Assembly: GCA_948144175.1 (NCBI GenBank)
Contig: CANXME010002323.1
Location: 1-64,000, forward strand
Direction: 5' to 3'
From: Closterium sp. NIES-65
Lineage: Eukaryota; Streptophyta; Zygnematophyceae; Desmidiales; Closteriaceae
DNA: 64,000 nt
Shown here: positions 5,500 to 63,826 of the stretch, in pieces
Position numbering within the stretch: position 1 is the first letter of the stretch
Layout of the letters: each line of letters starts with the position of its first letter
The notes under the pieces: generated by a model
What the model saw: only the letters and a program-made list of their open reading frames with translations
Told to the model about the DNA's origin: nothing
Database searches by the model: none
Program-made: the position numbers and the translations under genes

Positions 5500-7134
5500 A
5501 TGGCGGCGGTGGTGGCGCGGTCGGAGGTGGAGGCGATGGTGCAGCTGCTGGGCGCGGACAAGGCCAGGCAGCGCGAGGTACGGCGGGTAATGGGGGCCTT
5601 GTGGGGCGTCTCAACAGTTTTGCGGGAGGGGCTTTTCATATCTCTCAAGAGGTGATGATGGCGCTGTTGGGCGCGGTCAGGGCCAAGCCGCGCGAGGAAC
5701 CGCGGTAGGTAATGGGAGGGTGCTGCCAGGCCAGGGGTTGTGATGCGGGGTATTAGGGCGCCTCGGAAGGCGGTGGTTCAGCTAGTGGGGGTGGAGTGAG
5801 CCTAGCAGCACGGGGTGCGGCACGGGGTGCGGCACGGGGTGCGGCACGTGACAGGGGGCTGAACCTGGCGTTATCACAGGGGCTATGTTGTGCGATGGAT
5901 ATGGTGTGCGGTGGAAATGGTGTGCGGTGGATATCGTGTGCGGTGGATATGTTGTGAGTAGTCCCTTTGCTGCTGCTTGGATTCAAGCTCTTCTCCCATA
6001 CCTTTCTTCTGTGTTGTTATTTGTATACTGTGCTTCGCATGCTGTGCGTCTCGTGCTGTGCTTCTTGTGCTGTGCTTCTCATGCTGTGCTTCTCGTGCTG
6101 TGCTTCTCGTGCTGTGCTTCTCATGCTGTGCTTCTCGTGCTGTGTTTCTCGTGCTGTGCTTCCCGTGCTGTGCTGGCAGGAGGGCTTTAGGAGGCTGCAT
6201 CGCTACATGCACGACTCGTGCATGCTGTCCTTCTGCACCGCTCTGGACCGAGGTACTGACCAGAGGGTACTGCCCCGTTGCCCCTTTGCCCCATTGCACC
6301 ATTCCTGCATTTCCCCATTTCCCCATTTCCCCATTTCCCCATTTCCCCATTTCCCCATTGAACCATTTCCCCATTGAACCATTTCCCCATTGAACCATTT
6401 CCCCATTGAGCCATTTCCCCATTTCCCCATTTCCCCATTGAACCATTTCCCTATTGAACCATTTCCCCATTGAACCATTTCCCCATTTCCCCATTTCCCC
6501 ATCGCCCCATTTCCCCATTTCCCCATCCCCCATTACCTCCATTCTCCCATTCCTCCATCAATCACTAATCATTCCCCCATTTCCCCAACTCCCTTTGTCC
6601 CACTGCCTTAGCGCCCCTGCCGCCGTGTTGGCGCATGAGATAGCTCTGGTGCACGCGCATGGCAGTGCTGCGCACGCGCATGGCAGTGCTGCGCACGCGC
6701 ATCCAAAGGGACGTGCTCGCCACACACACCACCTTTTGCCATATTCTAATGTTCTCCTGTCTCCATATTGCCCTGTTTCCCTGTTGCCTTGTTGCCCTGC
6801 TGGCACACACACACATGCAACAGAGGACCTGTGGTGGCATCACTGTGGTGGCATCACTGTGGTGGCATCACTGTGCACTGCCGTCCAAAGGGACGTGCTC
6901 ACCTCACCACACACACCACCTCTTGCCCTGTTGCCCTTCCCTGTCACCCTGTTTCTCTGTTGTCCACGCTCACACGCAACAGAGGAGCTGTGGTGCACCG
7001 TGGTGGCAGCGCTGTGCACGGCCATCAACAGGGACATGGTCGCCACACCGTACACACCACCCTTTGACTTGTTCCCCTGTTGCCCTTCCCTGTCACCCTG
7101 CTCCCTTGCTGGCACACACACACACACACACACA

Positions 7135-7248: not shown

Positions 7249-10075
7249 CATCAGAGGAGCTGTGGTGCACCGTGGTGGCAGCGCTGTGCACGGCCATCAA
7301 CAGGGACGTGCTCGCCACAAACGCCACGCGCACGCGCCGCACCCACAGGCAGGAAGCAGCGAGGGAGCTGCGGAGGCTGATAGAGGCGGCAGATGAGAGA
7401 GGTGCTGTGAGGGAGAGGGGGGGAGGAAGGGGGGGTGTGAGAGGGAGTTGGAGGGGTTTGCATGCAGAGGGGGGTGGGTGGGTGGATGCAGTGAGTGAGG
7501 CACACGCAGGCAGGAAGCAGCGAGGGAGCTGAGGAGCCTGTAGAGGCCGCAGCTGAGAGAGGTGCCACGAGTGCCGGGTGAGGGGGTTGTGGTGGAGGGG
7601 GTTGTGGTGGAGGGGGTTGTGGTGGAGGGGTTTGGGTGTGGAGGGGTTTTGGGTGTGGAGGGGTTTGGGTGTGGAGGGGTTTGGGTGTGGAGGGGGTCGG
7701 GAATGGGGATGCTTCTGTGTGAGGGTTATTTTTGAGATTTCTCAAATGCATCTGTCAGGGAGGGATGCAGTGAGTGCGGCTCGCACAGCTGCCGGAGTCA
7801 CTGCTGTCAGAATCCCAACCACTTAGACCATTGGGATAAAAGGGCTTGTTTGTGTAGCGGGTGAGTGCGCCCATAACCCCCCAGGCCAACATGCCTCTAA
7901 CCCTTCCCTAGGATCAATCAGGGAACTCCAATGCACCTCTGACAACTGCCTCCATCCCCCCGCTCTTCCCCTCACTTCCCCTCACTTCCCCTGCCTCCCC
8001 CAGTACCCCCACCCCCTCTAGCGCTCACCCCTTGTGCCTCAGCAGCAGGGTGTGCACGGCGTGTCAGCACATAGCATCCGCACGACCCAATTCACTGCCT
8101 CCACATCCCCCCTCTCGTCCCTTCCCCTCCCCTGCCTTCCCAGTCCCCCCACCCCCACTGGGCGCACACCCCTTGCGCCTAGCCACCAGGGTGGGCACGG
8201 TGTGTCAGCACATAGCAGCCACACTAATCGTCTAATTCTCCTTCCTCCTTTGCTCCCCTCCCCTGCCTTCCCAGTCCCCCCACCCCCACTGGGCGCCCAC
8301 CCCTTGCGCCTAGCCAACAGGGTGCGCACACTGTGCCAGCACATATCAACCACGCTGCCCCTGGCGCCCTCCTTCCTCACCGACTACTGTCACACGCTGC
8401 TCGCGCTGCTTGCCGTGCCTGACTATGCGCTCTGCATCACCCACACCAAGACACTGCGAGGTGAGACGTGGTGCGCACCGTGTGTCAGCAGATAGCGGCA
8501 ATGCTGCACTGCCTCTGGCGCCCTCCTTTCTCACCGAATACTGCCATGCGCTGCTCGCCCTGCTCGCCGTGCCCGACTATGCGCTCTGCATCGCCCACAC
8601 CAAGACACTGCGAGGTGAGATGGGGTGCGCACGGTGTGTCAACACATAGCAGCAATGCCGCCCTGCCCCAGGCGCCTGTTTTTCTCAGGTGAGATGAGTG
8701 CGGTGCTGTACGGTGAGAAGGGTGCTGTGCTGCGAAGTAAACTCCGAACCTTTTCATTTGACCGTGCCATGCCGTAGAGTCTGAGAGGGCAACGTTGCAC
8801 AACATATCACATCACATAGTCTTCCCCATTCCCACTCATCACTTGTTTGCCTCCTCGCGTGTGTCCTCTGTGCCCTCTTTGCCCTCTGTGCCCTCTGTGC
8901 CCTCTGTGTCTTCTGTGCCCTGCGTGTGGGCTGCAGAGCTCATCACATTCTTTATGAGCCACCTGGAGCTGGCAGTTGGAGCAGCTACCGCCACCACAAC
9001 ACCAGGAGTGCTCCTCCCGCCCGCGTCGGCATCACCTGCTGCTGGTGCCGCTACAGTGTCCAGTCTGGAGGCCGCTTCCTCCGTGCTGGCGCTGACTCGC
9101 TGTGCTGCGGGCGGAGCCTCCCTGAAGGTGCAGCAGCAGCGCGACATGGTAGCCAGCTTTACCCGCATCTTCACTCACCTCAGGTGCGAGTTTTGAGAAT
9201 TCACACACCTCAGGCATGGTGCTCCTGCCGCTGTTCACACATGTCAGGTGCGAGTAAGTTTTGAGAATTCGCAAAAGCAGCAGCGCGACATGGCGGCCAG
9301 CTTCACGCGCATCTTTACTCACCTCAGGCAGGTTGCTCGTGCCTCCGTTCCCACACCTCTGAGAGTAATCAAAAGCAGCAGTGTGGAGTCGCTACCAGCT
9401 TCACACGCCTGAGGTTGCATTCGCCGCCACGTTCCGATCATTCCAGCTTGTATTTTCACCTCAGCTTGCATTCTACCAGAAAAGCTGTGGCAGCCCTTTG
9501 TTTGGCGCGTGACAGCCCATTGCACCTTTGATAACCTCACCTTCCTTTTTTTCATCCTTTCTGCACTCTTGGGCTGGGTGGGCCCCCTTCATCCTGTTGC
9601 ACGCAGCAGGTGCACCGACAGGGTAGCGGCACAATCAGGGGCTTGGTGACTCGCGGTGTGCCTTGCGGACAGACCACTTAGTGTGCCCATGCTCCTCATG
9701 CTCCTCATGCTCCTCATGCTCCTCATGCTCCTCATGCTCCTCATGCTCCTCATGCTCCTCATGCTCCTCATGCTCCTCATGCTCCTCATGCTCCTCATGC
9801 TCCTCATGCTCCTCATGCTCCTCATGCTCCTCATGCTCCTCATGCTCCTCATGCTCCTCATGCTCCTCATGCTCCTCATGCTCCTCATTCTCCTCATTCC
9901 CCCACACCGCAGTGACGACGGCCGGTTGGCACGCAAGCTGCTGGCGTGTGGGGCAGCCTTCCTCGCAGCGTGTGGGAGGGGCCTTGCTGCAGCAGGGGAA
10001 CTGGCGGGGCTGCTAGGTGCACTCAGGGGCTTTGTGGTGCGCACGTGGCACTGCACTCGGGATGAGAATGTCATG
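5500..10075 (+). CDS. ATM: ATM exons 1-6 (TAN motif and N-terminal helical repeats)
   Basis: Exons: 5500-5577, 6180-6252, 7255-7401, 8275-8460, 8937-9183, 9913-10075. Exon 2 ([18 protein letters not shown]) follows the TAN motif. Exon 3 ([19 protein letters not shown]), exon 4 ([19 protein letters not shown]) and exon 6 ([17 protein letters not shown]) align by eye with the N-terminal 250 residues of Arabidopsis ATM, where the last reads DEGKLSRKLIECVNTFL. Phases chain as 0, 1, 1, 1, 2, 0. The exon 4 acceptor could also lie slightly downstream of 8275. Exons 1, 3, 4, 5 and 6 each have partial copies close by. Confidence 0.88.
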
Positions 10076-13000
10076 GTGAGTCAAGATAGCAGTGCATGTG
10101 ATGGCGAGCGCAGACTCACTGGTGATGCCTGTGATGGATCATTGCACTGACAGGGTTGCTGGGTGCACGCGGGGACTTTGTGGTGGGCACGTGGCACTGC
10201 ACACGAGATAAGTTTTGAGGCGCCACAGCACACAGGACGAGAATGTCATGGTGAGTCAAGATAGCGGTGCATGTGATGGCGGGCGCAGATGCATTCGGTA
10301 AGCCCTCCCAGACACACATCTGCTGCATATGATGGACATCGTTCCAAGGGGGATGCTGGGTGCACTGCACTCAGGGGCTTTGTGGTCAGAACAGAACGTG
10401 GCACTGCACAGCACACAGAATGAGATGAGAATGTGAGGATGAGGCAAGACACAGTGTGCATGGGATGGGATGGGATGGATGGGATGGGATGGGATGGGAT
10501 GGGATGGGATGGGATGGGATGGGATGGGATGGAGGGCTCCACACCACAGCTGCTGCAACGCATGTCATGGCTTCACACGCTCTTCCGCCCCTCGCCCCTC
10601 CCCCTTTTCCCTTCAGGAGGGCCTCGTTCTCTCTGCGCGCATGCTCGTGCGCCTCACAGCAGGAGGGGAACTGCACGACGGCGATGATGGGAGCGAGGAG
10701 GGGGCGGAGGGGGCACCGCTGGCAGCAGGAGGGGGTGGAGGGGGCAGCAGCAAGGTGCAGAGCGAGTTGCAGAGGGAGGTGCAGAGGGAGGTGCAGAGGG
10801 AGGTGCTGTTGCTGGTGGTGAAGGAACTCTCGCGCTCCTCCACTGCTGCTAGCACCACTGCCTCTGCCAGCCTGCTTCGAGGGTGCGTGGCGGGGCGGGT
10901 GATAGTGAGCGGGTGGCTGGGTGGGTGCTGGCTGGATGGCTGGCTGGCGTGGCAGGGTGGGTGGGTGGGTAGATGTGAGGATGGTGGGTGGGTGGATGGG
11001 AGGATAGTGGGTGGGTGGGTTAACTTGTGCTCTGCAGTTTCGTCGTTCCACTCTGGAGTGTACGGGGCGTGACATAGGTAGACGCTGGGCCAGTTGACTT
11101 TTGAGTCGACTCAAAAGTCAACTCTGGAGTGTACGGAGCGTGGCATAGATAGATGCTGGGCCAGCTCCCCCAGCAATGCACTGCTTCCCTCCCTGTACGC
11201 CTCACTGCTTCCCTCCCTGTACGCCTCACTGCTTCCCTCCCTGTACGCCTCACTGCTTCCCTCCCTGTACGCCTCACTGCTTCCCTCCCTGTACGCCTCA
11301 CTGCTTCCCTCCCTGTACGCCTCACTGCTTCCCTCCCTGTACGCCGCACTGCTTCCCTCCCTGTACGCCTCACTGCTTCCCTCCCTGTACGCCTCACTGC
11401 TTCCTTCCCTGTACGCCTCACTGCTTCCCTCCCTGTACGCCTCACTGCTTCCCTCCCTGTACGCCGCACTGCTTCCCTCCCTATACGCCTCACTGCTTCC
11501 CTCCCTGTACGCCTCACTGCTTCCCTCCCTGTACGCCTCACTGCTTCCCTCCCTGTACGCCTCACTGCTTCCCTCCCTGTACGCCTCACTGCTTCCCTCC
11601 CTGTACGCCTCACTGCTTCCCTCCCTGTACGCCTCACTGCTTCCCTCCCTGTACGCCTCACTGCTTCCCTCCCTGTACGCCTCACTGCTTCCCTCCCTGT
11701 ACGCCTCACTGCTTCCCTCCCTGTACGCCTCACTGCTTCCCTCCCTGTACGCCTCACTGCTTCCCTCCCTGTACGCCGCACTGCTTCCCTCCCTGTACGC
11801 CTCACTGCTTCCCTCCCTGTACGCCTCACTGCTTCCTTCCCTGTACGCCTCACTGCTTCCCTCCCTGTACGCCTCACTGCTTCCCTCCCTGTACGCCTCA
11901 CTGCTTCCCTCCCTGTACGCCGCACTGCTTCCCTCCCTATACGCCTCACTGCTTCCCTCCCTGTACGCCTCACTGCTTCCCTCCCTGTACGCCTCACTGC
12001 TTCCCTCCCTGTACGCCTCACTGCTTCCCTCCCTGTACGCCTCACTGCTTCCCTCCCTGTACGCCTCACTGCTTCCCTCCCTGTACGCCTCACTGCTTCC
12101 CTCCCTGTACGCCTCACTGCTTCCCTCCCTGTACGCCTCACTGCTTCCCTCCCTGTACGCCTCACTGCTTCCTTCCCTGTACGCCTCACTGCTTCCCTCC
12201 CTGTACGCCTCACTGCTTTGTCACCGAATACGCACGGTCGTGCATATAAGGTGCCAGTTATGTTGAGGTGTAGTTCTGGTGCAGCAATGTTGAGTATGAA
12301 TATTCGAGGGTAGGTAGTTGGGGAACCAGGGAAGTTGACGCGAGGTTGGTAGGAGAGCACCAAGGGAGAAATCCACGCGACCAATGTGATTGAACCAACC
12401 CAAGCTCGAGCCGCACATTGAGAAATGCACGGTTCGAGGCCAGGCCAGGTAAAGTCACTCTCTCACACATCCCTGATGCTTTCCGTTTGTTATCCTTTCG
12501 CATAGTGGAGAGTTGTTTCCTTAACTCACAGCTAGGTGGCACACCACTCAGAGAGGACCCTTGAGGTGGGAGTTCCGACTCTTTCATAAGAGAATGGCTG
12601 AGAAGTGGCTGAGGCAGCAGAAGGAACTGAGAAGAAGAAGAGAATCAGAATGCAGGCAGATGACTAGCAGAGCTGTTTCTCCAACAGCTTTCCTCCCTGT
12701 ACGCCTCACTGCTTCCCTCTCTATACGCCTCACTGCTTCCCTCTCTGTACGCCTCACTGCTTCCCTCTCTGTACGCCTCACTGCTTCCCATGAGCTGCTC
12801 GTGCATCCCCCACTCCCCCTCCGCCTTCCCTCTCCGCCTCAAACCCCCTCGCTGCAGTCTGGATGTGCGGGCAGTGACAGCAGCGTCCAGGTCATCGCTG
12901 CACGCATCATCCTCCGTGGCGCAATCCCATTGGCCAATCATGGACCTCGCTGCCTCGCTCCTCTCCCAGGTGCCATCGCCTCACCTCCTCTCCTTCCCAA

Positions 13001-16000
13001 CATTCCCCCTTCTCCCGCCATTACTCACTCTATCTCCTCCCCTCCCTTCCACCTTTGCCCGCCACCTCTCATGTCATACATTCACTCTCCCTCCGTCCCC
13101 GCTCCCTTCTCCCCCATACTCCCTTCTTGCTCTCTTGTTCTCGTCCCATTGTATTTTGCATCCAACAGCGCACCCGTTGCGGCTCAGCTCTCGTTTATCC
13201 CTCATTTCCTTGTGTCACTTCTAACAACCTGCCACTGTGGCATTGTGTTTCTGCATTGCTCGCTACCGATACATGCAGCAACCGCACCACCTACCACCAC
13301 CATCACCACAGTCACCGCCACCAGCAGCAGCAGCACCACATGCTGCGGAAGAAGACGAAGACGGCCGCCCGGCAAAGAGGCAACGGAGAGGCGCTGGCGC
13401 TGGCATTGGCACATTGGGCACGGCACCAGGCGGCGGCGTGGGAGCAGGAGCACTGGCAGGTGTATGTGTGGGCGCTGCTTATGAAGGCAGTGGTGGTGGT
13501 GCGGGTGGCTCCTCGGTGTGGGCCGTGTTGGAGGAGCATATCACACTCGGCACTGCTCCCTGGTGAGGCACTGCTCCCTGGTGAGGCACTGCTCCCTGGT
13601 GAGGCACTGCTCCCTGGTGAGGCACTGCTCCCTGGTGAGGCACTGCTCCCTGGTGAGGCACTGCTCCCTGGTGAGGCACTGCTCCCTGGTGAGGCACTGC
13701 TCCCTGGTGAGGCACTGCTCCCTGGTGAGGCACTGCTCCCTGGTGAGGCACTGCTCCCTGGTGAGGCACTGCTCCCTGGTGAGGCACTGCTCCCTGGTGA
13801 GGCACTGCTCCCTGGTGAGGCACTGCTCCCTGGTGAGGCACTGCTCCCTGGTGAGGCACTGCTCCCTGGTGAGGCACTGCTCCCTGGTGAGGCACTGCTC
13901 CCTGGTGAGGCACTGCTCCCTGGTGAGGCACTGCTCCCTGGTGAGGCACTGCTCCCTGGTGAGGCACTGCTCCCTGGTGAGGCACTGCTCCCTGGTGAGG
14001 CGTGCCCGCTTGTGAGGCGTGCCCGCTTTTGAGGCGTGCCCGCTGGTGAGGTGCTGTCCCGTTCATCTCCCCACCCCCCCACGCTAAACCTTAGAATTCA
14101 AAGCCCAGCCGTACTCTACTTCCGCCAGTCTTGCTTCTCCTCAAACCTTCCTTCTTCCAGCACTTACCGCTCTCTTCGTTGCTTCTGCATCTCTTACCCC
14201 TCCCTCCATCCCTCCCCCCCTCCCTCCATCCCTTCCCCCTCCCTCCATTTCTCCCCGCTCCCTCCACCCCTCCCCTTTCCTCACGTCTCTCCCCCATTCC
14301 TCCATCTCGTGCCTCTCCCTCCATCGCCCCCGCTCCCACCACCTGCAGGCTAACAGCCCTGTGTGTGCTGCTCTGCGACCACAGCCACTCCATACCGCCA
14401 CACACCCTGCACCGCTGGCTTGCCCTCCTGCACTCGCACCTCGCCAGGTGACCTGATGCTGCCTTCCCATGTGCATCGAGTCGAATAAAAGAGTGCAACC
14501 TGGCTTACTCTCGTGCCCTCGCTCCTCTAGGCCTGCTGCTGCCATCCGCTGCACCCATCATGCATTCACCTTTCATACCACTCATCATTTCCCCACTAAG
14601 TGTACTGCCATCGTTCCTCTCTGCTGGCTGGCTCGCCTGCCATCTTCTGCCTACCAACGTCTGTAAACCACCACTCCCCTGCAACCGCACTGCACCTCTT
14701 CAGCGCGTAAACACGCCCCTGCCTGCACGTGCACATGCCCCCCTCCCTAACCCCAGGCGCTTCTTGAGGCGCCACAAGTCCGCTGTCTGCGTGTGTACCT
14801 CCGTGCCTCCGGGGCAGCAGGTGGATGCAGGATGCGCGGCACAAGGGCGACTTTTGAGTCGACTCAAAAGTCAGCCCGCCCCTGCTTCCCATGTGCATGC
14901 CTGTGGCCCTTTCCCAGAGCAGGTGGATGCAGGATGCGAGGCACAAGGGCTCGTTGCCAACACCCATCTGGGCGCTCAGGTGAGGCTCTGCGCTGTGCTG
15001 CCACTTGCCCATCTGCCAGATGGGTTTTCTGCTGTGGAGCGATTTTTTCACCCTGTGATCCCACCGACGGTTGTCTTGTCTTGTTCCTGTCCCATTTTGT
15101 CCCTGTTCCTGTCACAGTCAGCAACAGGGTTGAAACAGATCCCTCCCTCTCTGCCCTAGATCTTGCCCTGAGGCACAGGGCCTCAGCCATGCAACTTTTA
15201 CTGTCTGCCAGGGCCCCACCCCACCAATGGCATGTGCGTGTGTGCAGGCACAGCTTGCCTCACCTCACACAGCTTGTCTCACCTCACACAGCTTGTCTCA
15301 CCTCACACAGCTTGTCTCACCTCACACAGCTTGTCTCACCTCACACAGCTTGTCTCACCTCACACACTAATCATCCCATCTCCCTCCCTTGGCCCATCAG
15401 GTGCCTGCAGCAGCTGTGCACGCTGCTCACCGCTCCTCACCCTCTGCATCGGTCAAGCCAAGTTCCTCTCAGCAGCAGCCCCGCAGCAGCTTCACCACAG
15501 CACCCGCAGCACCCTCCTCCGCAGCATCTGTCGCTTGCTGCTCTGTGGCAGAGCGTGTGGGGCGAGGTCACTGCTGCTCTCCCTGCGCTGCCTCTTGCAT
15601 TGGTAATTGCTGCCCTGCCGCGCTTCACCCAACCTGTCTCCTGCATCTGCAGTCGTCAAGTTTTCTGCTTCTTGATGTGCCCCTTTCTTCTCCGAGCTTC
15701 CCTCTCCTCTTCGGCCCCTGTCCCCCAGTTTCTGCTGCTGCCTCGCTGACTTTTGAAATGAAATGAAATGTACCACTTTGCCAGGTTGATTCTATTATAA
15801 GGCGCCTAAAAATCCTTCTGCTGCTGCCGTGCTGACAGCTGTTGACTATGAGGTCCAATCTCCAACTTGGGCCTTCCGTTCCGTTCCCCCCTTTGCCATC
15901 TCGCCAGGTGGAGCCATGCCTCTCGCTCCTCTCCACCTTACTGCAAGCGGTGAGTGCAGGTGCCATGTGCCATTTGCAACCATGTATGAGTGAATGGATG

Positions 16001-19000
16001 TGCATGTGCCATCCGTACAATGATGCAATACATACAGATGAGATGGCAACTCATGCAACTGTATGGATTGCATCATTGTACGGATGGCAACTCGTAAACG
16101 CAAGCGAGTGCTGCTCACCTCGTGAGTGCATGACGTATGTAAACGCAAGTGTCAACCGCTGCACTGTATGATGCTTTCCGTCTGTTCAATGTCCAGAGAA
16201 AGGCAACCGTGACGCTGCGTATTCATAGCCAACCACTGCAGAACCAATCAAATTAATTAATTCCCTGCAACTATTCCATTCATGCCCTTCTGTGTAATGC
16301 TGTTGTCTTAACTGAAATGGTCTTTCCTTCTGTTCCGTGTATGCCTACCATTCCCCTCTTTTATCCCCCATGCGTGATGACTCTACACAGGGTGTTGTGC
16401 AGGACGTGATTCCTCCCAGGGAGCTGCTGGCATTGCCGCAGTTCAAGGAGGGAGCAGCACTCGCGAGGTGAGCAGCACTCGCGAGGTGAGCAGCACTCAC
16501 GAGGTGAGCATGGACCTGGCATTGCCAGCCTACTCAAACATATTATTACTCAATCGTTTCGCCATGCCAGAAACAATAGTTCCTCTAGCCAGCAACGACC
16601 CACCTCCAGCTCTGCCATGGCCCATGGCCTGGTTGGGCTTCTGTTGAGCCACCAAGGTCCGAGCATACCTCTGCCCTTTCGGATCTTCGTTTTTTGCGGC
16701 ACTCTATGTTGCGTTTTCATGCTCCCACACGCACGCCCTTTCCTTCCACTCCCATGCATGCGCATCCCAGTGGTATGGGCCTCTTGCTTCCGCTTTCTCC
16801 CTTGTTCCCGTCACCAGTGCAACTCTGCAGTTTGCAGCTGCACTTCTATCCAATACAGCCTTCCAGGTACTATGCTTTGCTTCTTGCATCGCCCGTCAAC
16901 TACTTTGTTCTCTTTTGCCAACTCTGCCCACACAGCTCTCCCCGGCCTCCCATCTTTCCTTTGCTGGACCCGCAAGGATTCTTGTTTGTGTAAGAATCTT
17001 CAGCAGGCTGGGAAACAAAAAACATTTGTGATTGTATCAGCAAAAATTAGGGTCTACTTCACACAAGTACCTGAAAAGGAAAACAATCGATGGTTCATCC
17101 AACCCACCTTCCACTCCACCTCCCCACTCTTCTCCCTACCAGCGCCAGGAGGCAGCACTGCTGGCGCTGAATCCAGCTGCCACGTCACCGCTCAGCTCAG
17201 CACGCGTGGCATTGCTGCAGTGGCTGCTTGCGGGAATGGCCAACGAGGTGGGCAGCTGCAGTGCGGTGCAGTGAGGTGAGTGTCAGAACTTGAGCTTAGA
17301 ATAGATACTATAGTAGTGAGCTCAAAGCTCTTTAAGTACATCCGGAATGAGCAAGGTAGGGATGAGGAGGGAATCAGGAGGCAATCCTAGGGAATCAAGG
17401 GTAATCCCAAGGCAATCTCCAATTGGTGGGTTGGAGATTGCTTGGAGATTACATTTGGGTTTGGTTGGGATGTGGGTGTACACCCAACCAAACACAAAGT
17501 GCAAACTACACTAAACTAGGATATAAAAGTACAAGTACAAAATGTGAGATTGGGGCCTAACACCAACACCCCCCCTGAGGCGTCAATCGAACTCATGGCG
17601 GAGAAGGAGGAGCGCAGAGCCCCATGGCGCCAAGGAGACGATGGTGGGGAACCTTCCCAAGGGGCTTGGTGAACAGGTCAGCCAGGTTGCAGTCAGATGC
17701 CACGTATTCCACCTTCAGCTGCTCTTGTTGCACAAGGTGACGAATGAAGAAGTGCCGAAGTTCAATATGCTTGGTGCGGGTGTGATACACAGGGTCTTGA
17801 GAGATGTGGATGGTACTCTGGTTGTCACACCAGAGGGTGGGGGCTGACTGAGGGAAGCCAAGCTCTTGGAGTAGGAAGGTGAACCAACGGGCCTCCTGAG
17901 CAGCCATGGTGCCTGCGTAGAGCTCCGCCTCACAGGAGGAGAGGGAGACTGCAGACGACCTGGTGGAGCGCCAACTGACAGTTCCGCTCCCGAGGGTGAA
18001 GCAGTACCCCTGAGAGGAGCGCCGGTCGGTCTGGTCATCAGCCCAGGAGGAGTCTGTGTAACCTTCCAGGCGAGGAGGGGAGAGCCCACCGAGTGTGAGA
18101 ACGTGGGACTTTGTGCCCTTAAGATAGCGCAGCACCCGCTTTGCTGCCTTCCAATGAAGATTAGTGAAGCGACCCGGGGCCACGTAACGAGAGAGAACAC
18201 TGACTGGGTAGGCCAAGTCCGGTCGGGTGCACATCATGGCGTACATGAGGGACCCAACAAGTTCCGGGTATGGCTCAGAGCAGGCCTCTGGTGTGGGTAC
18301 AGCAGGAGCTGTAAGGAGGTGTTGCAGCGGCAGCGGGGTGGCAACAGGTGTGCACAGCTCCATCTCAAACCGCTTGAGCACATTGTCGATGTAGAACTCC
18401 TGGGAGAGTGAGATGGTGCGAGCCTTGCGATCACGAGTGATCTCCATTCCCAGGTAGTGCTTGAGGTCACCAAGGTCTTTCATCTGGAGGGCCTTGCTCA
18501 GGGCTGCCTGGACAGAGGTCATTTGGGCCGAGTCCTTGGCAACGAGGATAAAATCATCCACGTAGACTAGGATGTAGAATGGCTCAGAATGACGACGGAT
18601 GAAGAGAGTCGGGTCAGCAGTTGAGGGGTGGAAGTCCAGGGAGAGGAGGACTTCTTTCACCTTGTTGTGCCATTCGCGAGGGGCTTGTTTAAGGCCGTAG
18701 ACGGGGCGATTCAGCTTCCAGACTGTGTTGGGAGGGAATTCTCCTGGGAAGCCTTCTGGTCTGTCCATGAACACTGTCTCCTTGAGACGTCCTTGTAGGA
18801 AAGCGGAGGAGGCATCCATGGATTTGATCTCAAAGTCTTCTCGAGCTGCAACATCCATGAGCGTTCGAATGGTGGGAGGTTTGGATGTGGGGGAGAAGAT
18901 TAGGTCGAAGTCGCGGTACCGCTGCTGGGTGAAGCCCTTGGCTACGTAACGCGCTTTGAACACCGGTGCCTCGTCTGGGAGCTGTTTTACACGGAACAAC

Positions 19001-22000
19001 CACTTGCCCCCGACGATGTTGACTCCTGGAGGTGGAGTCTCGTCATCGAAAGAGTGGTTGCGAGTGAATGCTGCAATCTCCGCGTCCATGGCAGCACGCC
19101 ATTCGGCAGCATGAGGGCCTGAGAGAGCCTCTTGGACGGTGAGAGGGATAGGGATGGTCGGGTTCTCCGCGAGGTTGAGGGAGGGTGAGCCAGTGATATC
19201 GGGGAAGATGTGTGAGAGCTGAGGAATGACTGCATGGAGATCACACAGCTCCTCATGCCTGTCTTCTAGAAGGGTAGAGGGCACATCCCCCCCAGCAGGA
19301 GGAGGCGGTGTGATCATTGTGTATCGAAGAACCATTGCGAGTGGAAGAGCAGCGCGATGGGAGCGGGTGCCATGAGCCACCGGTGAGGAGGGCGGGGCAG
19401 GCGGTGTCGGAGAGGGTGACTTAGGAGGCTTGGGTGGGGGAATGGGCCGCCGGCGGTACGTGCTCAGCTCGGGCGACTGTGGGAGAGCGGGTTCCTCTGT
19501 GGTGGGGGGAACTGGGGGAGGAGGTGGGGCCGGAGGGTGGGACCGCCGATGGTAGGTGATAGGTGCGCTCGGAGGGGGCGGCGCAGCGGGAAGTGAGGAA
19601 GGTGAGGGGGGGGGCGGAGCAGCCGCCGAAGACACCGGTGAGGCCGGGTCAGAGACCTCAGAGGGAGATGGTGGGATGGCAGGAGAGGGAGGAGGTGAGG
19701 GGGCAGGAGCAGGCGGGAGGTCGGGAGGCGCGTCAAAGTCTGCCCACACGAGGGAGGGTGGATCAGGGAGAGGGTCCCGTCCCGAAGGGGAGTAGAATGG
19801 GCGGGTCTCATCAAAGACAACGTCGCGGCTCCTGACCAACTGTTGAGTGGAGGGATTGAGGAAGAGGTAGTCAGGTGAGTCGGCGTTGTGCCCAAGGTAG
19901 ATGCACGTTTGAGTCTTGGGACCGAGCTTGCCACCGTTCTGGCGTCGAGCCTGAGGGTTGAGGAGGACATAGGCGGTGCATCCCCAAACGCGAAGAGAGC
20001 GAGCAGTGGGCGTTTTCCCGAGCCAGAGTGTGGTTGGAGTGGTGTCGGGAAGGTGCGGATGGGGGTAAAGGTTGTAGAGGAGGGCGGCGTGGTAGAGAGC
20101 GTATCCCCAGAGAGAGTGTGGAGCGTTGGAGTGGCTGAGGAGGCACCGAGTGATCTGCACTAGAGTGTGGTTGCGGCTCTCAGCTATGCCGTTCTGTTGA
20201 GGGCTGTCAGGGAGGGTGACGTTTTGCTGGATGCCTTCGGAGGAGCAGAAGGCTTTAAGCTTGTCGTTGCAAAATTCACCCCCCCCATCCGAGTGAAGGC
20301 GCTTGACCTTGAGGTCAAAGGTGGTCTGTGCCTGCTTGACCCACGCCATGATGACCTCTGGAGCCTCAGCCTTAGTGTGGAGGAGGTGAACAGAGACGTA
20401 TCGTGAGTGGTCATCCACGATAACTAGGAAGTAGCGATATCCACCTCGTGCAAGAACAGGGGCAGGGCCCCAGACGTCCATGTGCACTAGGTCCAGTGGT
20501 GCCGCTGCGATTGTGGGTGAGGCAGTGTGGGGCTGTTGGCGCAGTTTGCTCTTGGTGCAATCAAGGCACGTGGGAGCGGGTGAGTCAGGTGGTGGAGGAA
20601 GTGTGGCTGGCAGGCCGAGAAGAAGTTTCTTGGAGGCCATGTCAGCAAGCGTGCGGAAGTTTGGGTGCCCTAACCGATGATGATAGAGGATGGTCGGGTT
20701 GGAGAGGCTGCGACATGTGCATGGTGTGATGGGAGCCTGTGCTTGGGTGGTTGAAACCTGTGGGAGAGGAACGCGTAGCGTGTAGAGGTCGCTGCTATTG
20801 AGGGTGAAGCGGGCCAAGACCTTGTTGGTGAGTGGGTCAATGATGTCGCAGTGGTCCTCATTCTCCGAGAAGATGGTGCGTAGCCCTGCTTTCTGAATTT
20901 CTGTTTGAGCCACTAGATTGTGGCGTAGTGAAGGCACGCACATGCCAGTGACGGTGCCGGAAGGGAAGGCTGGGCATGGGACTGTGGAGGTGCCCTTGGC
21001 TAGGGTGGTGAAGCTGGAGTCAGCTCCCAAGAGAGGGATAGGTGCTGGATAGGGTTTGAAGGAGAGTGTCTCCTTGAGCACAGTGTGAGTGGCCCCACTG
21101 TCGAGTGTGAACTCTATGTACTGTGGTGCCTGTGATGAGTCGATGTACTGGGAAGTGGCTTCATTAATCATGGCAGTGCCAGGAAACAACAGGTTGATAC
21201 GCACATCAACAGGAGCACTGTCACTAGCACTAGCCGAAGAGGGGTCCTGGACCTCAACGAGATTGGCCTTACGAGCGCGCATCCAGTTTGGCGGCTTCTT
21301 GTCAACCCCGTGGATGGCATACCACTCGTCGTCTTTCTTCTTGAAGCACGTGGCAAGGGGGTGGTTAGTGCCACCACACACTTGTCCCTTGCGGTTGCCA
21401 TACTTGACGACGTAGGTGCACGGAGGAAAGCGGTTGCGCTGGAAAGGCGCCGAGGCAAGGGCTGCTGCAACACTTGCTAGGGGCATGGGAGCACGGATGG
21501 CGTATGCCTTGGCCTGAGCAGTGGAGTCTTTCTCGGCAGAGAGGAGTGCGGTGGAGACCTTAGCAAAGGTGAGGTCTTCCGCTGAGAGCGTGAGGAGCAT
21601 CTTCCTCGTCACTTCATATGCCGAGGAGAGACCAACAAGAAGGGCGGCTGCAGGGGCTTGTTCGGGGAAGACTATACCCAGCTCCTTGAGTTCACCATGA
21701 ATGGTCTGCACCTTGGCGATGTAATCAGCCATTCCTGAGCAGTCCTCAAGGCGGACTTGAAACATGCTGGGGATGAGAATCGCCACTCCGACCGCCGTCT
21801 TGTTCATGAACCGATCCTGGAGATACTTCCAGATGGCGTTGGAGGTAGGGTAGTTGTGGAACGTGTTGACAAGTTCGGGAGGGGTGGAGGCAATGAAGAC
21901 GCTGATGATGGCAGCATCGGCCTTCTCCCACTTCCGGTACTTCTCAACAGCTTCTTCGTACGTCATCACGTCAGCATCACTTGAAGATTCGGTCGGTTCA

Positions 22001-52000: not shown

Positions 52001-55000
52001 CGCCCAGAATTTCTTCTTGGCTTGGCAGCAACGACGCTACAGTCTTATCTCAACTCAACCCGGTCTCTCTGTTCACACCCACACACAATCTCTCTCTCCT
52101 GTCTTATCCCTGCTGTTGTTCCGCACCCCTCATCTCATCCCTCTCATCTGCAGTACGAAGCTGCCTGGAAGATGGGCAAGTGGGACCTGCCAGCAGCTCA
52201 GCTCCCGGACTCGTCCAACTCGTCACCCTACCCGCCCTCCACCTTGCTCATACTCACAGCCCCACCTGGCAGCAGCAGCACCACTGCGTCCACCATGCCT
52301 GGTGCTGCTTCTGGCTTCCACGCCGCTCTCTACAGGTGTGTTGCAGCCTCCTTTAGAGAGCGGCGCCCCCTTTGTCACACTCACAGCCCCACCAGGCAGC
52401 AGCAGCACCACCACGTCTGCCATGGCCATGCCTGGCGGCGCTGCTGCTGGCTTCCACGCTGCGCTTTACAGGTGCGCTGCAGCAGCCCTTTCTTCCGCCT
52501 GTGTTCCTGTGCCGCCCGTGTCCGCTGCAGCTTGCTGGTTTCGAGCGTGAGCACTACAGGTGCGCTGCAGCAGTGAACATCCCATCCCCATCGCTCCCCA
52601 TCGTTTCCTCCTCCATGCTTCCACCCGCTCCCCTCTCTCCTCGTCCACCCATCCATCGCCCTCTCCCGACAGTGCTCTCAAGGCTCTTCATGATGACGAC
52701 TGCACTTCCGCTGCCGCCGCTGCTGTTGCTGCTCAGCAGGTGCTGCCAGCCTCGGCTCCTCCCTGTCATGAACACTCTCACTCAACTCAATAAACTTGCT
52801 CTTCCAGTACAGCACATGCACGTGCTATCTTGCGCCACTTTCTCAAAATGCACTTACGAGCATTCACGTTCTTCAAAATACCCCATGCTCCATTCCATGT
52901 CCGTCCATCCAATGCAACCCCCACCCCTCCCTCCACACACAACTGTGCTCTCACACACACCCTTGCGCACTCTTCCCACTGCAGCATTACCCGTTTTTCT
53001 TACTTCTCAAAGAGTCATTCATCTGCGCATGTCTACCTGCTCTGCACATCAAGCATCGTCGCATGCACTCACTCGCTCACACATGTTTTCCTCCACCCAA
53101 TGTCACCGTGTCACAGACTATTGTGTGCCAGCTGGCGTCCATGTCAGCAGAGAGTGCCCTCCACATCAACTCACGCCTCATCCTCCTCCAGGTCAGCCAG
53201 ACTCCCCCATCCACTCATCCACTCGTCCACCCATCTTCTCATCCCCCATTCTCCTCCCTCTCAGCGCCGCCTACCTTCCATCCACCATCATCGTTCCATT
53301 CCCTGTTCCTCCCCTCCCCCTCCCCCTCCTCCCTGACTCTTACCTTTTGCTCGTCCCTATCAAAACTGATTTCCCCCAGCTCTTTCGTGTGGCTGTCTAA
53401 GTGTCTCACCCGTCCCGTTCTGCCTTCCTGCTCCCACAACGATCCATCTCGGGTGTGAGCAACTAGCAACTTTTTTTTTACGGCCACAGCTGCACTGCAC
53501 ACACTCTTTCCCCCACTCATCCCCATCTCCCTGTGTCATTCAGGCCCTGGAGAACGTTCGAGAGGCAGCAGCTCCCACACTCGCCCGTGGAGGGGGCCCG
53601 CCCATTCACGCAGGGCAGGCACGGCACACAGAGGTGGGCAAGGCAGGGATGGATGGGGAATGCAGGAGTGGGGAATACAACTGCTGAATCACAACAAAGA
53701 AGCTACTGAGATTGGTTTCGATACGATTGAGTCGGGAGTGAGCAAAAGCTGCACAACAAGGTTGGCCTCATTTGGATGTCTGTATACTACTTTCTTTCTT
53801 ATGCATGACTCCTTGTGCCTACATGAAACGCTGCTTCCCTTGCCCGAACCCTCTCTACCTACCCTACGCCCACTCGCCCACACACTCGTCAGTTCATTCA
53901 CATCATATTCTCCCGCCCACATTACCCTAATTCTCCTCCCCCCCCCCCCTCTGTTGCAGCTGCACACGTGGCAGCGCCAGCTGGCAGCGTGTGGGAGCAG
54001 CTTCGAGTTACAGGAGCCGCTGCTGAGCTGTCGGGGGGCGTATCTGCGTGCGAGTGGGCAGCATAACGCCCTGCCGCTGCACCTGCTGGAGGCTGCCAGC
54101 CTCTGCCGCAAGGTGGGTTGACTGCCGTGCTGCTGACTGCCGTGCTGCTGACTGCCGTGCTGCTGACTGCCATGCTGCTGACTGCCGTGCTGCTGACTGC
54201 CGTGCTGCTGACTGCCGTGCTGCTGACTGCCGTGCTGCTGACTGCCCTGCTGCTGACTGCCCTGCTGCTGACTGCCCTGCTGCTGACTGCCCTGCTGCTG
54301 ACTGCCGTGCTGCTGACTGTCCTGCTGCTGACTGCCCTGCTGCTGACTGCCCTGCTGCTGACTGCCCTGCTGCTGACTGCCGTGCTCCTGATTCCACATG
54401 CGTTGGATGCTTTCTTCTTCTTCTTCACTTCTCTCCACCTTCCATTCATCGTATGTCACTCTTCCTAATTTCTCTCTGCTGCAACAAACCATTGTGGCAC
54501 CCTCCCTAATTTCCCTCTCTCTTTCACCCACCCCTCTCCGTTCATCCCATGCCTCTCCATTCATCCCATGCCTCTCCGTTCATCCCATTCCTCTCCGTTC
54601 ATCCCATGCCTCTCCGTTCATCCCATGCCTCTCCGTTCATCCCATGCCTCTCCGTTCATCCCATGCCTCTCCGTTCATCCCATGCCTCTCCGTTCATCCC
54701 ATGCCTCTCCGTTCATCCCATGCCTCTCCGTTCATCCCATGCCTCTCCCTCCCAACCAGGCGCGCCTTCTGAGCCAGGCAGCAGTGCAGGTGCAACATCT
54801 CAAGGATGCCTGCCGCACCCTCACAGCACGCAGCCACACACCCACCACTGTGCCGCACCTGCCACCAACAAGCAGCGCTGCCACAGCATCGGCAGAGGAG
54901 GGGACGTGGGGAGTGGAGGGGGTGGCATTCTGTGGGCGGGTGGAGGAGGCGAAGCTGCTGGCATTGGAAGGGCAGCAGGACATGGCCGTGCGCCTGCTGC

Positions 55001-58000
55001 AGCACCTGCTGCGCCCAGACCTGCCACCGCACGCTTCCCAGGGGTCTGCTTCACCTTCTGCCGCCTCTGCTGCTGTTACCACTGCTGCTGTTACCACTGC
55101 TGCTGTTACCACTGTTGCTGCTGCATGTGTACCAGTGTCTGACCGCGTCTACACGCTCGGCTTGGCGGCCAAGTGGCTTGGGGAGACGCGCTCTATAAGG
55201 TTGGGCTGGAGTGGGAGGCTAGAGGCGTGGGAAACGGGATTCATTGCCACTCACAGCTGAGATGAGCATCATAAAGCGGGATTGAATCTTTCCACAATCA
55301 AAAGTTGTGTGCATGGATCTTTGAATCTTGATGCTCATGGAGTGAAGTGCACTGTTTGTTCGACAGCTGCCATTGGCCCAAAATTCAATCCTTAATTCTT
55401 CTCTCTCTCTAACGTTCGAAGCTGTTGCATTGGTTTCCCTTAACTTTCTGGGGTTCCCGTCGTTCCTTCTCCCCTCTCGCTTCTGTTATCTCATTCTCCT
55501 GTCCGACGCCCACCAGCTCGCGGGTGGTACTGAATGACTACCTGTGGCGCGCAGTGGACCTCACAACCCACCCGCCCACTGCCTCACACTCCGCCTCGCC
55601 CTCTGCTGCTGCTGCTGCTGCCACTGCACCCCCAAGCTATGCCTCCCTTCCGTTCGCCAATAACTGGCACCAGCAGAAACAGGAGCGGCAGTGGAAGCAG
55701 CAGCAGCAGCAGCAAGGGGGATATGGTGGGCAGCAGGGGGGTGAGAGGGAGCAGGGGGGACAGGGGGGGGAGCAAGGCCAGTGGCAGCAGCGGCGGCAGT
55801 GGGGAGAGGTGCATTTTCAAATGGCGCGCTACGTGGATGGGCTGTTTGTGGTGCTGCATACTCGGCTGCACTCGCAGCAGTGGCGTGCGGCACAGGATCT
55901 CACAAACCACAAGGTGCATTGCGATTGAGAGTGAGAGTGAGAGTGAGAGTGAGGCACAAGGTGGGGCGGTAGCGAGGCATGGCGGCACGGGAAGTGCACA
56001 CAAGACGCACGGCACGGGAAGTGCACACAAGACGCACGGCACGGGAAGTGCACACAAGACGCACGGCACGGGAAGTGCACACAAGACGCACGGCACGGGA
56101 AGTGTGGAGTTGGGAACATGCGAGTTGCTCTCACCTATTCATCTGCTCACCTCTGTCGTCCCATGTTCTGCTTGACTGCCCTCCACCCCCTCTCTCTCTG
56201 CCTTCCTGGCATGGCATGGCATGGCAGCGGAAGGAGTTGGAGGAGATGACAAAGCGACTAAAGGCTTCTAGACGAGTGAGTACCGGCTGTGCCCGCGGTG
56301 CCCGCTGTGCCCCCCACCTCTCTTCTGAACTGCACCCTGCTCGCTTGTTGTGTCCACGCACATCCACTATCAAGTCAACCCAACAAGATCCTCTTCCGGA
56401 CTTGACATGACTGACACTGCCTCACCCCACCGCACGCATGGCACCGCATTGCACCGCACGGCACCCACCTCGTATCAGGAGGACGAGAGGCGGGTGTACG
56501 GGATGAAGATGATGGAGCTACAGAAGCAGCTGAGCATGGACGACCAGGAGGCCAACGACCTGCAGGTGCAACCCCCGCACCTTGCCATTCCTCCTCCCTG
56601 CCATCCCTCCTGCCTGCCATCCGGTGCTCCATCCACCTACCATCCTTGGTTAGTCCGCAGAAGGCTATAAGCCAAAACTGCTTGTTATCAAAGTTTACAA
56701 AGGTGCAAACACAGGGAAGCACCACACCCTAATATGCTTGCCAGTCTCTGCCTTGTGTTCGCTGAAACGGGTCCTGTGGTCTCCTCTACGGCTCCCGTCT
56801 GTATGCCTTGCTGTGCCGTGCCGTGCCGTGTCGTGCTGTGCTCTGCTCTGCTCTGCTCTGCTCTGCTCTGCTCTGCTCTGCTCTGCTCTGCTCTGTGGTG
56901 CGGTGCTGTGCTGTGCGGTGGTGAGTGCAGGGAGAGCATGACATGTACCTACGTGCTGCTCTCGAGAACTACAGGAACTGCCTTCTGGCGGCCGACACGT
57001 TCAACATCAAAGGGGTAACTGTTGAAGTGGTAACTGTTGAAGTGGTAACTGATGAAGTGGTAACTGTTGAAATGGTAAGTGTTGAAGTGGTAACTGTTGA
57101 AGTGGTAACTGTTGAAGTGGTAACTGTTGAAGGGGTAACTGTTGAAGTGGTAACTGTTGAAGTGGTAACTGTTGAAGTGGTAACTGTTGAAGTGGTAACT
57201 GATGAAGTGGTAACTGTTGAAATGGTAACGGTCGAAGTGGTAACTGCTGAAGTGGTAACTGCTGAAGTGGTAATTGTTCAAGTGGTAACTGTTGAAGTGG
57301 TAACTGTTGAAGTGGTAAGTGTTCAAGTGGTAACAACTGTTGAAGTGGTAACTGTTGAAGTGGTAACTGTCGAAGTGGTGACTGTTGAAGTGGTAACTGT
57401 TGAAGTGGTAACTGCTGAAGTGGTAACTGTCGAAGTGGTAACTGTTGAATTGTTAACTGCTGAAGTGGTTGGTAACCATCAAAGTGGCTACTGTTGACGT
57501 CTCAGTGGAGGACGTATCAAAGTGATGATACACATGAGCTGCGAGCAGTAACATTTGGAAGCGATCCGGCTGTGCTGTGCTGCATCAGGGTGGTAACAAG
57601 CTGAGAACGTGACAGTAGCTGATTGGTTCGCATGCACCTTTCCACCAATAGCACCTCCCCGTTCCCACCTTGCCTAGCGCTCATTTTTGTTTCCAACCAC
57701 CACACCCTGCCTCTCCTCCTTTCTTCCTTGCCCACTCGCCCGCACGCCCACAGGTGTTCCGCCTGACAGCGCTCTGGTTCACGCTGCTCAAAAATACCAA
57801 CGCGGACACAGTGAATGCGGAGATGCTCACAACCATTTTTTAGTCGACTCAAAAGTCAACTTCTTGTCATCTCCCCCCCCCCCCCCCGCCTCTATGCCCA
57901 CAGGTGTTTCGCCTGACAGCGCTCTGGTTCACGCTGCTCAACGATGCCACGGCTGACGCAGTCAATGCGGAGATGCTCACAACCATCCAGACGGTCAGTC

Positions 58001-61000
58001 ATTTCGCTTCTCAGTCACAGATGCATCATTTTTTCGTGGCGAAAATTTCTCTGCGAGCACGTGTATGCGAGTAACCAATGAGACCAAGAATGGCCAACGT
58101 CCACCCCCAATAGGGGCTGAAGAACGTGCAGCAGCACATGCTCCCCTGCTTCTAGCAGCACGTGCTCCCCTGCTTCTAGCAGAGCCCTCCCGCATTCCTC
58201 CCACTTGAAGCCACCCACGCCCTCCTTTCCCACTCAATTGCCACCCCCTGCCCTGCCTCGCCCTTCCCCTCTCCAGGTGCCGTCATACAAGTTCCTGCCA
58301 CTCGTGTACCAGATGGCATCACGCATGAGCGAGCGAGACCCCCACGGCTCACCGCCGCTGCACCCTGAGACACCCGACTTCCAGGTGGGTGGTCCGTTCA
58401 GCTCAGCTTTCCAAGGCTATCACACTTGCCTGTTCAAATCTGACCAACTCTACCCCAATTGCCCAATTTGACCACTTCAGCTGTTTGTTCGGTCATGTAT
58501 GTATGCATGAAAACTCCTCCGCTCTCTGCTATTGCTCTCTGCACTCGCTCTCCGTGTTAGACGTTCACAATGCAGTGCATGTCCTCGCTGAATCAGCATG
58601 CTCGACTTGCGTGCATGCTGCTGTAAGAAGCTCTTGCACAATGCAGGCGTTTTGAGACGTCACCTCAAAACACTTCTTCAAACACATGTATGCATGCTGC
58701 TGTAAGAGCCTCATGCACAATGCAGGTGTGCTGTGCGGGCAAATGTGCTATTGCGCACCCTCGGCTTTTGCAATGAGTCAACGGGTTACTTACGCGTCTG
58801 AGAATTCTCAAAAGTGATTTCGATGAGTCAACGGGTTACTTACGCGTCTGAGAATTCTCAAAAGTGATTTCGATGAGTCAACGGGTTACTTACGCGTCAA
58901 GCATTGTTTGTGCTGACGGAAGTTGGCAGAAGATCTTCTTCTTGCTGAAGCTCTCCCCCCGTCCATGTTCCCAACCCAACATCATGCCTTACTTTCTCCC
59001 CACCCACAGTCAGTGCTGACAACGCTCGTCAAGCGAATGGCGGACGACCATCCCCTGCACACCGTGCCTGTGGTACGCACTCAGTCACCCCATGTTCGGC
59101 CATGCTTCATAAAAAATCACAGCATTCGAAGCCTGGCTCACACCTACCTACACAGCACCGCAGTGCACACACTATGCCCCAAAAACTCCTCCGACTTGTT
59201 TCAACACTCCCCTCCCCTCCCCTCTCTCCCCTCCAACCCAACCCCTACCTACCCACCTCCACCCTCCGCCCTCCCCCTTCTCCGCAGCTCATGGCGCTGG
59301 CCAATGGCAACAGGGTGCGTAGCAGCCAGCGCGGGCGCAACCTCTTTGTCGTGGATGAGGACAAGATCCGGGCGGCAAAGGCTGTCCTGGGCGGCATGGC
59401 TGAGCGGCACAAGCCCATGCTGGATGAGGTAAGACAAGAAAGTAGGCTTGCTGCCATATCGTCTGATCCGAGTTGACTTTTGAGTCGACTCGAAAGTCAA
59501 CTCATCGGGTCTGATACAACTGTAAGCGTGCTGGTATTAGTTCCTCCAAGGACTGTGTGGTGCCTCCAAGGACTGTGTGGTGCCTCCAAGGACTGTGTGG
59601 TGCCTCCAAGGACTGTGTGGTGCCTCCAAGGACTGTGTGGTGCCTCCAAGGACTGTGTGGTGCCTCCACGGACTGTGTGGTGCCTCCAAGGACTGTGTGG
59701 TGCCTCCACGGACTGTGTGGTGCCTCCACGGACTGTGTGGTGCCTCCAAGGACTGTGTGGTGCCTCCAAGGACTGTGTGGTGCCTCCAAGGACTGTGTGG
59801 TGCAGCTGCTTCATGCAGCTACTGGTGAAGAGAAGAGCCAAGCCCACCATTCCTCTTTCATCTTGCTTCCCGCCCATCCTCGCCCTACCTGCCTGTCTGC
59901 CAGCCAAACCGCCCCTTCTATCTTCCCCCAGAATTCACCAGCTGATGGATATGTGGATATGGAATGCCGCCCTCATTCGTCCTGTGGTGTGCCCCACATC
60001 TCCCCAATGCGCCATCTTCACTCAACCCGCTTGCCTGCCAACCAAACCACCCCTTCCTTTGTATGTCCCCACAGATGCAGCAGCTGATGGATCTGTACAT
60101 CCGCCTAGCGGAGCTGGAGTCCAGCAAGGAGGTGGGTGCGGTGCGGTGGAATGCGGTTACAGAGTGTGAGGAGGTAGATGGTGGTTGTCTATTCCACATG
60201 GGATGCTTCGTCCTCAGGGTCTCACCTCGCGCATGCTTGTTGCTGTCACAGTCACTTGCAGTCTGCTGCACTTCTCTCCTTGCTCCACCGGACCACCGCT
60301 TTCCACTTTCCTCTCCGTGTTCTTGTCTGTGAATCTGCAATCCACTTTCTTTCCACCATCCCACTCGCCTCAGGATCTCATGCGTTCAAAGCAGCTACCG
60401 AGAAACTTCCGCAGCGTCAGGGACCTCTTGCGGGTGAGTGGTGGCCTGGGAAGCAGAATGCGGGTGGTAGTGCTGGGGTATTCTTCTGAACCACAATTGT
60501 CATTCACTATTGAGAACTCTCAAACCCGTTGTTGTAGATTTCACTTGTGTACAACAGCATGCCGGCGATGCTGAGTGTGTCACAGCCACGATTGTCATGC
60601 ACAGCAGGCGTGCAGGCTGTACCTGGCTGTACCTGGCTGTACCTGGCTGTACCTGGCTGTACCTGGCTGTACCTGGCCGAGCATCTTTGTGTTCAACTTC
60701 TGTGAACGACTTTCAACGTCTTCATATGATGGGCCGGTCGCCTATGCAGATTAATCTCCCGGCCCTTGCCACCTTCCCTCAGTTGTCAGTTCCCTATGAT
60801 GGTCAGCTCTCTCTGCCCCCCTGCCACCCACCCCCAGGTGCCGGTGCTCACAGCCTCGGTGCCTGTGGAGTTCTGAGGCTCCTCAAAAACCATCTCCTCC
60901 TGTCCTCACCGCACGCACGTGAGGCCCCCTCTCCTCCTGCTGCCTGCCCCCAGGTTCCCGTGCTCACAGCCTCGGTGCCTGTGGACCAAACCTGCTGCTA

Positions 61001-63826: not shown

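Follow-up and report, generated by a model that had tools for sequence, protein, structure and literature searches.

Within the window, the 64,000-nucleotide stretch of Closterium DNA analysed here, the association between one family of very short palindromes and local direct duplications is real. In its full form a site consists of a single palindrome lying between two direct copies of the neighbouring sequence (X-palindrome-X'), the clear copies being 47-127 bp in length; this arrangement occurs in excess of chance in the window, the palindromes prefer the inner borders of the duplications, and the arms of the palindromes and the duplicated copies have decayed to approximately the same extent. 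On balance, each such site is probably the footprint of one insertion of an ultra-short palindrome at a widely staggered, filled-in break. All of these observations were made on one gene of a single genome.

A gene with many exons lies on the plus strand of the window. Two exons at approximately 62.7-63.3 kb were joined to give a 58-residue piece of its kinase part, which matched Tel1 (E 1e-12) and ATM (E 2e-11) in a search of the PDB, and the gene is therefore identified as ATM/Tel1; two short ATM exon peptides found no match in the PDB, and when ten open reading frames were compared with Pfam, only the polyprotein of a Ty3-type element scored above the cut-offs. A copia polyprotein encoded at 17596-22191 (minus strand) gave 30 matches; 23 of these, including all of the top 22, are from Closterium sp. 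(NIES-53, -54, and -64), thus identifying the window as Closterium nuclear DNA. The copia element itself (17281-23091) has identical 288-bp LTRs and a minus-strand ORF of 1532 aa, and lies within a GTGAG microsatellite. Splice sites were assigned by eye from the sequence.

The palindrome family is described by the motif TTTTGAG-NNNN-CTCAAAA (TTTTGAGNNNNCTCAAAA), which was found with 0-2 mismatches at 24 places; ten order-1 Markov sequences of the length of the window contained no match with ≤2 mismatches, and at three mismatches there were 11 matches as opposed to the 1.6 expected from Markov shuffles. Eight of the 24 places belong as repeat units to two tandem arrays (37178-37351 and 45739-45834), the place at 25585 mirrors that at 25090 within an inverted repeat, and 58846 repeats 58796, so that approximately 15 of the 24 are independent. 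Family members range from 18 to 34 bp. The best-preserved copies (11092-11123, 14849-14872, and 25088-25109) are perfect, loop-free inverted repeats 22-32 bp long, and in the best copies the insert consists wholly of inverted repeat, with arms of up to 16-17 bp. The central four bases are variable; among 24 sites listed by hand they are self-complementary in 14 (TCGA in six, AATT in four, and GCGC in four), and other cores recur, namely ATTT at 7730 and 61094 and GCGA at 23247 and 51142. A left arm reading TTTTTAG in place of TTTTGAG is found on the plus strand at 57837-57854, 36584-36601, and 61094-61111, with the same variant in the right arm at 15795. Such recurrent variants suggest that the palindromes would have been copied from a source rather than formed afresh on each occasion. 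Exact patterns of the TCGA form had no matches in viral contigs or in prokaryote genome contigs, and a search of Rfam at the gathering threshold was negative.

A 34-bp palindrome of the family (59470-59503) has no significant flank duplication. Two arrays contain the palindrome together with its neighbouring sequence in each unit: a 39-bp tandem array (20-bp palindrome and 19-bp spacer) with 5.9 copies at 37156-37385, the remaining part of which resumes at 45709-45869 with 4.1 copies, and a 50-bp array with 2.5 copies at 58773-58898. Both are read as later expansions. The two parts of the 39-bp array are separated by a Ty3-type retrotransposon (37386-45710; polyprotein ORF 39058-43983), for which a 4-bp target duplication (GCCT) in the middle of one GGCGCC palindrome can be seen by eye; a weak preference for palindromes has been reported for plant LTR elements (PMC6911290). 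The polyprotein includes a C5-cytosine methylase domain (PF00145) at 22.8 bits, barely over the cut-off of 22. The 3' end of the element (44170-45710) carries a tandem 683-bp unit (a 508-bp LTR match plus 175 bp) with copies that are 100% identical, which suggests a recent or unusual insertion.

A self-comparison of the window with tandem arrays masked gave 44 local direct-repeat alignments, for which the inner border was defined as the end of the left copy or the start of the right copy. Among the 12 palindromes with ≤1 mismatch outside masked arrays and retrotransposons, six (9259, 14852, 25090, 25585, 57837, and 60871) lay within 3 bp of an inner border, compared with a mean of 0.10 and a maximum of 2 in 2000 random placements; with the mirror site 25585 removed, this becomes five of 11 independent palindromes against 0.098 expected. 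None of the 12 was at an outer border or inside a copy, and the absence of well-preserved palindromes from outer borders implies that the duplicated unit did not include the palindrome. When matches with ≤3 mismatches were taken (n = 27), 12 were within 8 bp of an inner border as against 0.62 expected, and two (9357 and 10213) were near an outer border as against 0.66 expected; a 4-mismatch match at 14762 is also near the outer left border of the 14852 duplication. As the list of duplications used here lacked the 11047/11118 pair, the border test is conservative at that site.

The flanks themselves were also compared. Eleven of 23 family sites (the 23- and 24-site family sets are hand lists with arrays collapsed) were positive in the flank-duplication test and none of 15 non-family palindromes were; these controls were what remained of 39 once family members, five LTR copies and four from the 25-kb repeat had been excluded; of the 15, five lie within the two retrotransposons, and all were scored without the extensions of a few bp granted to family sites and random points. 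Random points were positive in 115 of 1500 cases, and points away from family palindromes in 87 of 1500, both counts being inflated because points within tandem duplications themselves cut the copies. In a dovetail test 14 of 24 sites, one of which (35654) was included after its duplication had been noticed, reached the level met by 10% of random points and only six of 24 the 5% level, a weakness caused by random points hitting other duplications, for which reason the border test was used. It is scarcely credible that the association is due to chance or is a by-product of the many satellites. The window is certainly rich in tandem repeats (120 rows in the tandem-repeat listing) and random points do have similar flanks at the frequency given above; however, the arrays were masked, the inner-border matches exceeded those of all 2000 random placements and the other palindromes showed no flank duplication. 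Within the window this explanation is refuted at the level stated.

The first-pass annotation had placed palindromes at the breakpoints of local duplications with ten examples, of which eight hold by flank alignment (9259, 11093, 14849, 25088, 51134, 57836, 60870, and 63171). The two others do not: the palindrome at 23245 merely adjoins a 26-bp tandem repeat, the unit of which starts within the palindrome arm, with no clear flank duplication (score 7.3, P 0.48), and at 33296, where a 27-bp copy does end 8 bp upstream, the flank similarity is not significant (score 7.9, P 0.30). Twelve of the 23 family palindromes show no such duplication, and where a long target duplication was lacking, a short one reached P < 0.05 at just one of 11 sites.

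Alignments running from border to border were obtained at 57837 (127 bp), 11099 (47 bp), 25090 (63 and 72 bp for the two copies), 60871 (~98 bp), 63174 (~97 bp), and 35654 (~110 bp), and at the first three of these only the palindrome lies between the copies. The clearest case within an exon is at 57837 (exon-bearing copies are given on the plus strand throughout): the left copy (57710-57836) comprises the intron end, the acceptor and the beginning of an ATM exon and stops mid-exon at a 23-bp palindrome, TTTTTAGTCGACTCAAAAGTCAA (57837-57859; one mismatch to the motif), and the right copy (57860-57986), identical to the left at 102 of 127 positions, runs on into the remaining exon. At 11047-11093 and 11118-11164 the two 47-bp copies are identical at 42 positions, and the perfect 32-bp palindrome (11092-11123; arm 16, loop 0) overlaps both with its outer bases. 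The copies at 25025-25087 and 25107-25178 (57 of 63 non-gap columns identical) flank a perfect 22-bp palindrome at 25088-25109, and the mirror image of this insertion is found at 25583-25604, within an 863-bp near-perfect inverted repeat (24915-25777; 94%) from which further direct and inverted copies extend to 26228.

At 25025-25178, 35547-35783, 60771-60985, and 63068-63283 identity is lower in parts and the layout is kept. The copies at 35547-35654 and 35673-35783 (79 of 111 columns identical) have as the sole sequence between them a strongly decayed, palindrome-like filler, TCTGAGTCACTAAGAAAG (35655-35672), an imperfect palindrome with a best motif match of five mismatches (P 0.026 for a random segment). 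At 60771-60869 a left copy made up of intron end and exon start is broken off, followed by the palindrome TTCTGAGGCTCCTCAAAA (60871-60888; one mismatch) and by a right copy with the intact exon (60889-60985; 73 of 101 columns identical). Similarly, the left copy at 63068-63169, an intron end and exon start (..VVPFTPSAG), breaks off at the decayed palindrome TGACTTTTTATTCGACTGAAA (63170-63190; four mismatches), and the right copy (63191-63283; 73 of 104 columns identical) carries the intact ATM kinase exon, the intact reading of which aligns to Tel1 with no gap across the breakpoint.

The layout is less clean at 9132-9368, 14816-14950, 51054-51246, and 58593-58729. In the first of these, the left copy (9132-9257) spans the end of an exon and its donor site and includes a second, degenerate palindrome (9191), and the right copy (9276-9368), an exon fragment with the start of the intron, begins at the border of the palindrome TTTTGAGAATTCGCAAAA (9259-9276; one mismatch). 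At 14816-14848 an exon start is broken off at a perfect 24-bp palindrome (14849-14872); the conserved part of the right copy, in the intact exon, lies at 14918-14950 (32 of 33 identical), and weaker gapped similarity (56/82) extends to near the palindrome border. The left copy at 51054-51133 is the intact side, with exon end, donor site and intron start, and is separated by a decayed palindrome, TTTCGAGGCGACACAAGA (51142-51159; three mismatches), from a truncated exon fragment at 51167-51246 (65 of 81 columns identical). In the last, copies at 58593-58650 and 58675-58729 (44 of 58 columns identical) flank the palindrome TTTTGAGACGTCACCTCAAAA (58650-58670), which has three extra central bases. 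A further palindrome, TTTTGAGGCGCCACAGCA (10213-10230), is at an inner border with respect to one duplication and at an outer border with respect to another, a position which would point to nested events.

The sites within exons share a pattern of one intact exon and one partial echo. As judged by eye, the left copies at 57837, 60871, and 63174 run from part of the intron through the acceptor into the exon start and then the palindrome, the right copy being complete, and each of the broken readings hits a stop inside the palindrome; 14852 is of the same type, and 9259 and 51142 are the mirror case, in which the donor site and the intact exon are in the left copy and the right copy is a fragment. 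In all six the copy that remains intact is the one on whose side the duplication retained the splice site, and the splice-like sites fall within the flank copies and not within the palindrome (again by eye). Going by the sequence, this pattern would be the expected residue of selection if long target duplications occurred freely and, in exons, only those restoring a splice site survived.

The association was also approached from the side of the duplications. The 44 alignments were trimmed by hand to 27 events. Alignments that overlapped or were redundant were dropped, as were the mirror pair 25550/25632, the array at 58768 and any alignment whose copies lay >150 bp from each other; the 11047/11118 pair was added. 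In 13 of the 27 the gap held a motif match better than 95% of random segments (P < 0.05), against 1.35 expected, and in nine the match was within ≤3 mismatches. The other 14 have no palindrome trace, thus local duplication also arises without a palindrome; taken with the 12 of 23 palindromes that lack a duplication, this makes the link strong but not one-to-one. Five of the 14 have short unrelated fillers of 8-18 bp. Duplications with unrelated fillers of 8-17 bp and no palindrome trace, at 29044-29226, 6855-7128, 36625-36983, and 52239-52490, make up a second class within the same gene.

Small tandem duplications have been described as arising from offset nicks, the complementary overhangs being filled in before joining, with CST/Pol alpha-primase and cNHEJ implicated in the fill-in (PMC8355091, PMC5730883). 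The Closterium sites resemble these in having a local direct duplication between putative offset nicks, adjacent copies and occasional junction inserts; however, the portions of that literature available describe no recurrent junction sequence, whereas in Closterium one palindrome family is found at the junction and the duplications reach ~127 bp. Direct, adjacent local duplication with short or no filler is thus common to both, and a filler without fixed sequence is seen in 14 of the 27 events and not in the other 13. Ordinary repair of staggered breaks (patch-mediated, by NHEJ or by polymerase theta) could have made the duplications, with the palindrome a favoured filler from an abundant donor and no dedicated mobile element. 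The 14 trace-less duplications and their unrelated fillers are in keeping with this, and staggered breaks are known, from the accounts available, to yield tandem duplications with occasional inserts templated in cis. We nevertheless consider it rather unlikely, since one sequence family recurs in the gaps, since the recurrent variants (the ATTT and GCGA cores and the TTTTTAG arm) suggest inheritance from a source, and since palindromes are also present without detectable duplication.

The relative age of palindromes and copies bears on whether the palindromes were there first. Arm compared against arm at eight sites, there were 11 mismatches where 11.5 would be expected from the divergence of the copies, and arm decay and copy divergence were correlated (Spearman 0.79, P 0.02); two of the ten sites were dropped because of indels in the palindrome and the arm spans were picked for each site, so that this result counts as moderate evidence. 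An earlier decay test, of motif mismatches against copy divergence, gave a rho of 0.36 (P 0.25, n = 12), or 0.23 (P 0.53) for ten sites. Together the two tests moderately favour an equal age of arms and copies. Were the palindromes older, they could have acted as cruciform-prone fragile sites that break, repair or template switching then duplicating a flank. Palindromes are in general fragile (PMC7999016, as far as the available text goes), two decayed motif matches do lie at outer borders and, as predicted by such fragility, one repeat copy of the 25-kb region starts at a family palindrome border (25106/25952); the palindrome is here at the breakpoint of another rearrangement, and this counts as evidence against simple insertion. 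However, if a tandem duplication had taken in an older palindrome, two palindromes should be left or a single one at an outer border, which is the case for none of the 12 well-preserved ones, arms and copies look approximately equally old, and palindromes outside the family have no duplication. We therefore regard an origin from older, fragile palindromes as improbable.

Insertion at a staggered break, the reading preferred here, would proceed as follows. Two nicks on opposite strands, tens to >100 bases apart, would open the target; fill-in of the overhangs would turn the stretch between the nicks into the direct repeat X/X', and the ends would be joined via an 18-34 bp palindrome of the one sequence family. 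The palindrome may be supplied by a minimal mobile hairpin, or by a short template ending in CTCAAAA and copied by both 3' ends; the latter route would give both arms TTTTGAG from the target inward, joined at self-complementary cores. Exon events would survive where X carries a nearby splice site, leaving one intact exon and one echo. A single event had already been proposed in the first-pass annotation, for example as a very long target-site duplication or as hairpin-primed template switching. The former fits: one palindrome lies between direct copies, well-preserved palindromes are at inner borders only, arms and copies are about equally decayed at eight sites, and the intact exon, by eye, is on the splice-site side. 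Template switching with inversion of the flanks finds no support as a general mechanism: once each palindrome and the 8 bp on either side of it are excluded, flank similarity is direct at ten of 23 family sites and inverted at one, 25585, which is within the large inverted repeat.

A more specific proposal, which we put forward tentatively as one possibility, is that the bare 18-34 bp palindrome is itself a nuclear mobile element, inserting with long, variable target duplications (~50-130 bp), primed by both 3' ends of a staggered break on the same template and leaving partial exon echoes. This would account for the start of both arms, TTTTGAG when read inward from the target, and for the self-complementarity of 14 of the 24 listed cores. 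If true, introns could be created or enlarged where the duplicated target holds a splice site.

MITEs and other DNA transposons have terminal inverted repeats flanked by direct repeats, with a target-site duplication of fixed, short length. The Closterium insert is similar in that inverted arms lie between direct repeats and form terminal inverted repeats; it differs in having no internal sequence and a duplication of 47-127 bp rather than of fixed short length. Target-primed insertion of LINEs and SINEs with twin priming produces a target duplication of variable length and an element body with a 3' tail. The variable duplication length (47-127 bp) is shared, and both arms read TTTTGAG inward as if two ends had primed on the same tail, whereas the insert has no element body, long A-tail or linked reverse transcriptase here. 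Introners, as far as they are described in the available text, are also short genic elements with a duplicated target and sometimes inverted ends, for which splice sites can come from the duplication; however, they are whole introns with flanking repeats of 3-9 bp, and the Closterium palindrome is probably not itself an intron (PMC9860276). A further parallel is with the selfish short palindromic repeats of the organelles and nucleus of Volvox carteri, likewise short dispersed palindromes in a green alga that are partly intronic (PMC2670323). These average ~50 nt with a loop of 3-5 nt and are said to be organelle-derived, whereas the best Closterium copies are loop-free, a separation made by description and not by sequence; the word 'duplication' has no match in the portion of the Volvox text available (PMC2670323). 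Similarly, the available text of the Closterium genome paper (PMC10407611) has no match for 'palindrom', and no description of a palindrome combined with a long local duplication was found among titles and the opening lines of abstracts.

If the association holds genome-wide, ultra-short palindromes and long local duplications would be linked through one insertion process, which would account for exon echoes and for the growth of introns in this alga, a relative of the land plants. It would also provide a natural, sequence-tagged record of staggered-break repair, in which the palindrome tag makes duplications recognisable and roughly datable, as untagged tandem duplications are not.
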